Below, piece after piece: positions 18,265 to 35,943 of a DNA stretch of 52,848 nt. The stretch covers positions 1-52,848 of the forward strand of contig JAIRKA010000028.1 in NCBI GenBank assembly GCA_031260345.1, read 5' to 3'. Within the stretch, counting starts at the first letter, position 1. Each line of letters begins with the position of its first letter. A model generated the notes under the pieces. The model did not search any database. It was not told the DNA's origin and saw nothing but the letters and a program-made list of their open reading frames with translations. This DNA comes from Methanosarcinales archaeon (lineage in GTDB: Archaea > Halobacteriota > Methanosarcinia > Methanosarcinales > Methanosarcinaceae). The position numbers were made by a program, and so were the translations under genes.

Positions 18265-18608
18265 ATTAATCGTGATATATTTTGAAGTACATATAACTAT
18301 GTTTCGAACATTAATGTCTCTTGATTATGTTTTCAAGCAACCTTAGCTTTTGTATATATTTATCCATATTCGGAGTATTGCTATTGTTTTAATTAGAAAT
18401 AATATTTATTTAATACCGATTATTATTGAATGGACGAATTTATTGATAAATTGGCAGCTGCGGGAAATAATTATAAAATAATTCATTGTAAGTTGAAACA
18501 ATTATTACGGACAATAAAAATCACAATCAATAACAATTATAATCAATCAGAATTATTATTACCCATATTGTTTCAATAATCATCGGATTAAAAAAGAGAG
18601 GAATAACC
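18265..18608. other. Divergent intergenic region between giant gene A and radB
   Basis: Very AT-rich, 344 bases. A minus-strand TATA-like element (about 18351-18362, TATATATT core) lies ~90 bases before gene A. A perfect 10-bp inverted pair, TTGAAACAAT (18493-18502) and ATTGTTTCAA (18567-18576), lies upstream of radB. An ORF of about 50 codons starts at ATG 18430 and ends just past the second arm; it has no recognisable content and is not called as a gene. Confidence 0.5.
18351..18362 (-). promoter_or_regulatory. Putative TATA box of the giant-protein operon
   Basis: On the minus strand the sequence reads ATAAATATATACA, preceded by purines that could serve as a BRE. It predicts a 5' leader of roughly 60 bases before gene A. 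This is the only strong TATA match in the region in that direction. Confidence 0.4.
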
Positions 18609-19280
18609 ATCGGAAATTATCTGACCACGGGATGCAAGCCGATTGACGATTTGATCGGCGGCGGCCTTGAATGCGGCATCGTCACGCAGGTGTACGGTGA
18701 GCCCGGCTCAGGTAAAACGAATTTGTGTCTTCAGGCGGCGATTGAATGTTCCAAATCCGGCAAAAAAGTCATTTACATTGACACGGAAGGGCTTTCTTTT
18801 GATCGATTCACTCAAATTGCCGGCGAAAAATCTAAAGAAATCGCGCAGAATATTTTAATTTACGAGCCGATGAGCTTTGATGAGCAGTACACGGCAATCT
18901 GCGAAGCGGAGAAAATTTCAAGCGAAAATATCGGCTTAATTGTCGTCGATTCCGCGACGTCCTTCTACCGTTGCGAACTGGACGATGAAGACGCGGGCAT
19001 TCAGGCACGGCGCGAACTCTCCAACCAAATCGGATTTTTACAGGGAATCGCTCGAAAAACAGGCATTGCCGTTTTGATTACGAATCAGATTTTCAGCGAT
19101 GTCGAAAACAGCGGAAACGTGCGCCCGATCGGTGGACGCGGCATTGAACACATTTCAAAAACCATTTTGAGATTGGACCGCATCGGAACGGGAGAGAGGA
19201 GCGCGAAAATCATAAAGCACCGCTCAAAACCCGAAGGAGATATATGCTGCTTTGCAATAACGGCCGATGGATTGAGATAA
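18609..19280 (+). CDS. radB: DNA repair and recombination protein RadB, apparent ATC start
   Basis: RadB is the archaeal RecA/RadA paralog that assists homologous recombination. It has Walker A GEPGSGKTN and Walker B LIVVDSATS, and lacks the N-terminal helix-hairpin-helix domain of RadA, as is normal for RadB. The family begins only a few residues before TTGCKPIDDLIGGG. In this frame no ATG, GTG or TTG lies upstream of that motif. ATC at 18609 sits 7 bases after GAGAGG (18596-18601) and gives a well-fitting N-terminus, xGNYLTTGCKPID. The TTG at 18651 would cut off the conserved start; CTG at 18621 is the other option but lies 19 bases from the Shine-Dalgarno. Read to the stop, the protein is 223 aa. 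Confidence 0.88.
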   Translation: MGNYLTTGCKPIDDLIGGGLECGIVTQVYGEPGSGKTNLCLQAAIECSKSGKKVIYIDTEGLSFDRFTQIAGEKSKEIAQNILIYEPMSFDEQYTAICEAEKISSENIGLIVVDSATSFYRCELDDEDAGIQARRELSNQIGFLQGIARKTGIAVLITNQIFSDVENSGNVRPIGGRGIEHISKTILRLDRIGTGERSAKIIKHRSKPEGDICCFAITADGLR

Positions 19281-33313: not shown

Positions 33314-33423
33314 TGAAACTTATTAAAATATACCGTCTGCCACCGCTTTCGGAATTTACTCTCACGATATCATTAAATATATATTAATACTGTTATGAAC
33401 TTTATTGTTTCGGAGGGATATTT

Positions 33424-35943
33424 ATCTCACGAAAATTTCTTTTGATTTTATTCATAACAACTTTGTTCTTGGTCACATGCGGTACCGCTGCGGCGGCAGA
33501 TACAATTTACGTCAACGAATCGTTGTTTATCCATATCGGCGACGGCTCTTTAGGTCTTCCTGATGCCCAGGGAACTTCTGTTAACTGGACTCTTGATGCA
33601 ACATACATTCTTGTCGAAAATATTAACGTGGCGAATATTACGGCTGATTGGACCCCGGTCGGCGGCTCGTCCGGTTCGTTTACAGGAACTTTGAATGGTC
33701 AAAATTTCACGATTTCTAATCTTACTATTCTTGCCGGCGGCAACGCCAGCTTATTCAATCGCACCGATGGCGCGACAATCGAAAATGTTATTTTGAACAA
33801 CGTTTCGAGTCCTACTGTCGGCACCACCGGCGCTTCTTTAATTGCAACTGCCAATAATACAACGATTGAAAATTGTCACGCTTCCTCCGTCAATATTGTC
33901 GGAAATTACAGTACCGGCGGTCTTGTTGGTCATCTTAGCGGTTCAACTATTTCTAACAGTTCCGCTTCCGGAACAGTTACGGGACAATCTCCCGGATGGG
34001 GTATCGGCGGTCTCGTAGGCACCGCTGACCAAAATTCTGTAATTGAAAACAGTTTTGCGATGGTCACTGTTACAGGAACCGGTGGGGAGACGAACGGTAA
34101 TATTGGCGGATTTATCGGCGGTCTCTCTAATTCCACTATTTCTAATTGTTATGCGACGGGTAATGTTGTCGGAAATGCGGGCAGTAATAATACAGGCAGT
34201 TTTGTCGGTTTTATTGGAGATACAATTTGGGCGGCATCCAATGTCGATAATTCTATTATATCATATTGCTACGCTGTCGGAAGTGTCTCAGGAGCCCAAA
34301 ATGTCGGCGGATTTGCAGGCAATATATCAGACCAGCATATCAATATTGGAAATGCAATTCAATTCAGTTTCTTCAGAGAGGGTAACGGCGGCACCGTCAA
34401 CGGTTTTGCCATTCCCGAGTCTGCTGCAAACTTAATGAAAATTCAAACTTTCTTAAATGCAGGTTGGGACATTTCGCCCGTACCGCCTGACAGTTCCAAA
34501 ATTTGGTATATTGTGGAGGGAGTGAGCTATCCGACATTCTATTGGGTTCCCTTGCCGGATATAATTTATGTCAATGAATTGCTGTTTATTCATATCGGCG
34601 ACGGTTCCGCGAATCTTCCCGATGCTCGGGGAAATTCTGTTAATTGGACGCTTAATGCAACATACATTCTTGAAGGAAATGTCAACATGGCAAATGTGAA
34701 TGGCGGTGTCTTCACTCCGATTGGAAGTCAAACAAATCCTTTTACAGGAACTTTGGATGGTCAAAATTTCACGATTTCTAATCTTTCGATTTCTGCCAGC
34801 AGCCATGCCGGCTTATTCAGTGTCACTAACGGCGCGACAATCGAAAATGTTATTTTGAACAACGTTACGAATCCGACTTCCGGCGCTTATTCCGGCTCTT
34901 TAGTCGGCGCTGCGAATAATACAGTTATTGAAAATTGTCACGCCCTCTCCGTCAGCGTTTCCGGAAATTACAGTATCGGCGGTCTCGTTGGCAGTCTCAA
35001 CGGTTCAGCTGTTTCCAACAGCTCCGCTTCAGGCACGGTCAGAGGTTCATCGCCGGGATCAGGTGTCGGCGGCCTTGCAGGCTCCGCTGAACAAGACTCC
35101 GTAATAACAACCAGTTTTGCGGCGGTCGCTGTGACAGCGGAGAGCGGTAATATCGGCGGATTTATCGGCGGTCTCTCTAATTCAACCATTTCAAATTGTT
35201 ATGCTGAAGGCAATGTTGTAGGAAATACAAGCAGCAATAATACCGGCGGCTTTGTTGGTTATATCGGAGGTGTGTGGTGGCCGTCAAACAATGACGATAC
35301 TTCAACCATTTCAAATTGTTACGCTGTCGGTGATGTCTTTGGAGATTACAGTGTCGGCGGCGGCTACGGGGCCCAAAATGTCGGCGGATTTGCAGGCAAT
35401 GTATCAAGCCAACACGTCGATATTGCAGATGCAATTCAGTTCAGTTTCTTCAGAGAGGATAACGGCGGCGACCTCAACGGTTTTGCCATTCCGAAATCCG
35501 CTGAAGATTTAATGAAAATTCAAACATTTTTAGATGTAGGCTGGTCTATTTCATCCGCACCTGACAGTTCCAAAATTTGGTATATCGTAGAAGGGGCGGA
35601 ATATCCGAAATTCTATTGGACATACGTTCCGTCAGGCGGCGGCAGCGGAGGAGGGGGAAGCGGCACGGGCAATGCAACGGTCATTCCGCCCGGAAATAAT
35701 TCGACCGGCAACGGCACCCCGCCCGGAAACAATTCAACAGGCAACGGCACTCCGCCGGGGAATAATTCAACAGGCAACGGTACTCCGCCCGGAAATAATT
35801 CAACAGGCGGCGGTTCTCCCGGAGGGGAAGGTTCTTGGAAATGGTATTATACGCTTCTTGTAGCCGGATCACTCCTCGGAATTTTCTTCTTGATCTTTTT
35901 CTACAGAAGACGAGAAGATGAAGAAGAAGAACAAATGAATTAA
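33424..35943 (+). CDS. Secreted, membrane-anchored GLUG-repeat surface protein with internal duplication; apparent ATC start
   Basis: 840 aa from ATC at 33424, which follows GGAGGG (33412-33417) by 6 bases and gives a proper signal peptide, xSRKFLLILFITTLFLVTCGTAAA. Starting at TTG 33442 would lose the basic residues. The mature part is two ~350-residue copies of one unit (about 28-378 and 379-728), each with GLUG-type repeats (GGLVGxLxGSxxSNSSASGTV, IGGFIGGLSNSTISNCYA). A GGGGSGTGNATV linker, four PPGNNSTGNGT stalk repeats full of N-glycosylation sequons, one membrane helix and an acidic tail follow. Surface location is firm; the ligand is unknown. Confidence 0.85.
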   Translation: MSRKFLLILFITTLFLVTCGTAAAADTIYVNESLFIHIGDGSLGLPDAQGTSVNWTLDATYILVENINVANITADWTPVGGSSGSFTGTLNGQNFTISNLTILAGGNASLFNRTDGATIENVILNNVSSPTVGTTGASLIATANNTTIENCHASSVNIVGNYSTGGLVGHLSGSTISNSSASGTVTGQSPGWGIGGLVGTADQNSVIENSFAMVTVTGTGGETNGNIGGFIGGLSNSTISNCYATGNVVGNAGSNNTGSFVGFIGDTIWAASNVDNSIISYCYAVGSVSGAQNVGGFAGNISDQHINIGNAIQFSFFREGNGGTVNGFAIPESAANLMKIQTFLNAGWDISPVPPDSSKIWYIVEGVSYPTFYWVPLPDIIYVNELLFIHIGDGSANLPDARGNSVNWTLNATYILEGNVNMANVNGGVFTPIGSQTNPFTGTLDGQNFTISNLSISASSHAGLFSVTNGATIENVILNNVTNPTSGAYSGSLVGAANNTVIENCHALSVSVSGNYSIGGLVGSLNGSAVSNSSASGTVRGSSPGSGVGGLAGSAEQDSVITTSFAAVAVTAESGNIGGFIGGLSNSTISNCYAEGNVVGNTSSNNTGGFVGYIGGVWWPSNNDDTSTISNCYAVGDVFGDYSVGGGYGAQNVGGFAGNVSSQHVDIADAIQFSFFREDNGGDLNGFAIPKSAEDLMKIQTFLDVGWSISSAPDSSKIWYIVEGAEYPKFYWTYVPSGGGSGGGGSGTGNATVIPPGNNSTGNGTPPGNNSTGNGTPPGNNSTGNGTPPGNNSTGGGSPGGEGSWKWYYTLLVAGSLLGIFFLIFFYRRREDEEEEQMN
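35686..35815 (+). repeat. 33-bp stalk repeats (PPGNNSTGNGT) in surface protein 2
   Basis: Four tandem units encode the Pro/Asn-rich stalk before the membrane helix. Each carries an NNST N-glycosylation sequon. The near identity of the DNA suggests recent expansion. Confidence 0.8.

Follow-up and report, generated by a model that had tools for sequence, protein, structure and literature searches.

Which codon begins translation when an archaeal Shine-Dalgarno (SD) sequence is followed at a normal distance by ATC, and the leader offers no usable ATG, GTG or TTG? The question is raised by a surface-protein gene in the window, a 52,848-nucleotide stretch forming contig C34 of a draft gut methanogen genome (G000; 1.59 Mb, 119 contigs, 76% complete). 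NCBI genetic code table 11 lists ATT, ATC and ATA as permitted starts. Gene finders rarely use such ATH codons, and the genes that have them get truncated to a downstream TTG or GTG. The initial annotation had proposed two ATC starts in the window, one in the DNA-recombination gene radB and one in the surface gene. We compared the window with genomes of its archaeal family, including a 4.2 Mb single-contig member, and of its genus (1.3–1.8 Mb, G+C 44%). Judged from these sequences, the surface gene almost certainly begins at AUC, not AUG, and its start-site assignment is well supported. The features of the locus are as follows.

33385..33387, + strand: in-frame TAA stop upstream of the start (sequence)
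33412..33417, + strand: SD GGAGGG; GGAGG lies 7 bases before the ATC, inside the genome's SD–ATG spacing range
33424..33426, + strand: predicted ATC start codon; the corresponding codon of the closest paralog (G000:C65:22056, minus strand) is ATT
33424..33498, + strand: predicted signal peptide (M)SRKFLLILFITTLFLVTCGTAAAA, likely cleaved at A|D (translation; n-region and core common to four paralogs)
33424..35943, + strand: GLUG-motif surface protein gene, 839 aa (Pfam Glug PF07581, E=1.2e-28)
33442..33444, + strand: TTG, the expected choice of a standard gene caller, rejected as start (24 bases from the SD; all basic residues removed)

The GGAGGG followed after six bases by ATC, as first described, was confirmed in the sequence; the spacer is ATATTT (33418–33423), and the ATC is in frame with the ORF that runs to 35943. 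Between the TAA and TTG 33442 there is no in-frame ATG, GTG or TTG, that TTG being the first after the stop. The codon at 33424 is therefore one of AUA, AUC and AUU (AUH) at normal SD spacing, with no usable ATG, GTG or TTG. As an estimate of chance, SD matches of at least 5 at a spacing of 4–10 preceded 185 of 7154 (2.6%) internal in-frame ATH codons. Two other codons were considered as starts and rejected: an in-frame ATA at 33418 directly follows the SD, at a spacing from GGAGG of 1 base that is too short for a start, and an upstream ATG at 33395 lies in another reading frame.

Translated from ATC 33424, the protein has the N-terminus ISRKFLLILFITTLFLVTCGTAAAAD. Its predicted signal peptide reads (M)SRK-FLLILFITTLFLVTCGTAAAA, with the basic SRK preceding the hydrophobic core, in agreement with the SRK-bearing signal peptide described earlier; its basic n-region and core are common to four paralogs. 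With 97.9 bits against a Pfam Glug gathering score of 20.5, the protein belongs to the GLUG-motif family. A Ser/Thr/Asn/Pro-rich stalk is followed by a C-terminal membrane segment and a basic tail (RRR), the C-terminus being WYYTLLVAGSLLGIFFLIFFYRRREDEEEEQMN. It resembles other GLUG-motif surface proteins (Pfam PF07581) in its GLUG repeats, signal peptide, stalk and C-terminal membrane anchor and differs from them in the AUC start of its gene. Matches to IgA-protease/ZmpA-type families span only the shared N-terminal repeat region, and domain searches found no protease domain. A genome-contig scan for orthologs returned only distant bacterial GLUG proteins, and the five genus relatives held no ortholog of this exact gene, the best identity being 35–37%.

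The nearest paralog, on another contig of the same genome (G000:C65:22056, minus strand), encodes 1280 aa and has ATT at the position homologous to the ATC. Its leader, TAA AGG AAG GAG AGG ATA ATT ATT TCA CGA AAA, aligns with GGA GGG ATA TTT ATC TCA CGA AAA in the window. It has its own SD, AGGAGAGG, and a TAA 18 bases upstream of the ATT, and neither leader contains a canonical start. The exact AUH start codon of the C65 paralog is less certain, as an ATA and a second ATT just before it could serve equally. The two genes become similar in DNA sequence about 6 bases before the ATY codon, with identity of about 37–40% at −60 to −10 and 80–90% from the ATY codon on; over codons 2–60, dN was 0.067 and dS 0.355 (dN/dS 0.19). 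Four further paralogs, on C66, carry an ATG at the homologous position or at most three codons away from it. In one of them, C66:20867, ATG SKN YFLILL stands exactly where the window has ATC SRK FLLILF, so the ATG/ATH difference lies at the start itself. In some paralogs, the ATG is 1–3 codons upstream of the S(R/K)K motif, which counts against an AUC start in the window gene.

The alternative that survives best, itself improbable, is that translation really begins six codons downstream, at TTG 33442, with the SRK codons belonging to an untranslated leader. TTG is accepted and used in this genome (37 of 286 best canonical starts), and the same TTG is also found in the C65 paralog. A start there would, however, leave the SD 24 bases away and the signal peptide with no K or R before its hydrophobic core, a cost already pointed out in the initial annotation and confirmed here, whereas ATG-started paralogs carry HRK, SKK or SKN at this place. 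In addition, TCACGAAAA is conserved between the two paralogs and the DNA upstream of the SD is not, and paralog C66:38619 has TTA in place of the TTG.

Further observations were made on the surface-protein family. Paralog G000:C66:38619 contains two in-frame TAG codons (GQD*TISNL and GLFG*TDG) where its paralogs have Tyr or Phe, in a frame that is otherwise long and open; they may reflect pyrrolysine read-through or early decay. TAG also precedes adhesin-like frames at C9 and C51. A GLUG protein of a genus relative (G005:C6:11180) has its signal peptide behind GGGAGGGGAACTTCG, with no ATG, GTG, TTG or ATH at normal spacing, which may be due to a frameshift, a fusion or another unusual start.

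The most interesting part of the analysis lies outside the coordinates of the surface gene, in a family-wide non-AUG start of radB. Two features of the window are concerned.

18596..18602, + strand: SD GAGAGGA of radB (sequence; family consensus GAGGTG)
18609..19280, + strand: radB gene with predicted ATC start at 18609–18611 (TIGR02237 RadB, E=4.4e-78)

The identity of RadB is given by an NCBIfam TIGR02237 score of 262 bits against a cut-off of 172.4. Its leader in the window reads AGAGG AATAACC ATC GGA AAT TAT, with the ATC at 18609 in frame with RadB. Among the 60 family species examined, the start codon was ATC or ATA in 60 and ATG in none. The proposed ATC start of radB holds throughout the genus, with ATC GGA in six of six species; in the remaining 54 species of the family the codon is ATA, at the aligned position in 53 and one codon before it (ATA ACA GGT) in one. 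The SD is conserved across the family as GAGGTG or AGAGGTGT. In many species a stop codon lies just upstream of the start (GTG TAA/TAG/TGA), which rules out the GTG as a start; in some species the open frame extends beyond this point and contains other candidate codons, none of them conserved. An ATG occurs near the start point in several relatives from outside the family. A start that is non-AUG in 60 species and changes from ATA to ATC but not to ATG suggests selection for a weak start. A literature search for archaeal AUA/AUC starts or radB start codons found no description; within the literature searched, family-wide retention of a non-AUG start in archaea seems not to have been reported.

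Two more genes of this genome, encoding an MFS transporter (C65:23564) and an MscS-like channel (C45:6096), offer only an ATC downstream of a strong SD. In four of the six genus species (G000, G005, G004 and G001) the MFS gene has ATC; in G005 and G004 the start is CAGGAGGAATAATTT ATC GAA with TAA just upstream, G003 has GGAGGAACATTT ATG GAC at the corresponding site, and in G002 the gene probably starts at a nearby TTG. At a single position, the MscS gene has ATC in G000, G005 and G003, ATT in G002, and ATG in G004 and G001. The codons of these two genes across the genus indicate that AUH and AUG interchange at a start. On one strand of contig C65 (22056–23564), the MFS gene (ATC) is immediately upstream of the GLUG surface gene (ATT), both with AUH starts.

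How common are such starts? Within 466 kb of this genome, in which a codon model called 306 genes, five had AUH starts (radB, the two surface genes, MFS and MscS); this proportion is an upper estimate, since surface genes and GGAGG-ATC sites partly guided the choice of stretches. Forty further GGAGG-ATC/ATT sites, in targeted stretches of about 139 kb, yielded no new solid case, so AUH starts are rare. Samples of 200 kb each from G015 and G027 contained no clear new ATH gene; samples of G005 and G011 contained similar candidates, for example ACAGGAGGAGTCATTT ATT AGA and AAGGAGGTAAATAAA ATT CAG. In G011, a member of a different genus in the family, genes with ATT or ATA behind a good SD and no canonical start were seen near joined coordinates 336426, 43734, 94828 and 184011; among these candidates are one similar to hexulose-phosphate synthase and an MFS-like protein.

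Non-AUG starts are conserved in homologs of radB, MFS and MscS, and for the surface gene itself in one paralog. ATC is formally allowed, like the other alternative starts of table 11; unlike those table entries, the ATH starts here are backed by comparative evidence. The initial annotation's suggestion that this genome genuinely uses ATC starts was upheld by further cases (C65 ATT, MFS ATC and MscS ATC), with the qualification that they are rare, at about 1–1.6% of genes sampled. Its restriction to ATC was too narrow, as the codons are AUA, AUC and AUU and the range extends beyond this genome to the family. The combination that would have spoken against it, no further cases together with sequencing errors at both sites, did not occur: further cases exist, and conservation excludes error.

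Loss of the start in both surface genes, leaving them as silent donor copies for recombination with ATG-bearing paralogs, is very unlikely. The genome does hold a large family of repeat-rich paralogs, between whose repeats recombination is plausible, but both genes have an SD at the right distance and long open frames (839 and 1280 aa), the dN/dS of about 0.19 over codons 2–60 indicates purifying selection, and single-copy housekeeping genes have the same kind of start. Least probable of all is a sequencing or assembly error for ATG at 33424: the assembly is a draft (119 contigs, 76% complete), but an independent locus, the C65 paralog, has ATT, and radB, MFS and MscS have ATH in several independent genomes.

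We consider it highly probable that the surface gene at 33424–35943 is translated from AUC, by an SD-plus-AUH device that a small number of genes in the lineage share. The strong SD GGAGGG would position the 30S subunit over the AUC, where the ordinary initiator Met-tRNA (anticodon CAU) would bind with a third-position mismatch; the protein would start with Met and carry the signal peptide M-SRK-FLLILF. The same device would serve the surface paralog, the MFS transporter, the MscS-like channel and, family-wide, radB. Only one initiator-type anticodon arm, GGGCTCATAACCC, with CAU, was found in the genome (76% complete), so that AUH would have to be read with a third-position mismatch, the SD compensating. 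A separate initiator tRNA with a GAU anticodon was not found in this 76% complete genome. In vitro, a bacterial system required pairing at the first two codon positions and tolerated a mismatch only at the third (PMC10158994).

Bacterial AUU/AUA starts (E. coli infC and pcnB; S. aureus infC, ccpN and cvfC1, PMC13009471) are likewise AUH codons behind a strong SD with no canonical start in place, and codon and SD are conserved among relatives. Expression from the conserved S. aureus AUU/AUA starts behind strong SDs is about 10% of that from AUG, one gene reaching up to 30% in rich medium (PMC13009471). Initiation in bacteria is lowered to roughly 10–30% of AUG, and by analogy archaeal AUH starts probably attenuate expression as well; their position, conservation and interchange with AUG are established by the sequence comparison. 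Unlike the bacterial cases, the archaeal ones involve a ribosome without IF3, whose fidelity factor is aIF1, use AUC, switch between AUA and AUC, and affect radB, surface proteins, MFS and MscS. Archaeal aIF1 acts against initiation at non-AUG codons (PMC6237735, PMC8211752), and AUH initiation at reduced efficiency would keep these proteins scarce and sensitive to it.

Evenly balanced, in our judgement, is the broader proposal that the family (probably Methanosarcinaceae) uses AUA, AUC and AUU starts as selected attenuation. Under it, radB would be kept at a non-AUG start in all species, even where the gut genus changed AUA to AUC, envelope genes would gain and lose the device in varying sets, and aIF1 would probably be the sensor, making this an archaeal counterpart of bacterial IF3/infC control. 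For annotation, gene finders restricted to ATG, GTG and TTG mis-start or truncate AUH genes, losing the signal peptide of the surface gene and the N-terminus of RadB. A non-AUG start conserved across an archaeal family points to selected weak initiation and offers a natural context in which to test how aIF1 influences start choice, for example with radB of Methanosarcina, for which genetic tools exist.
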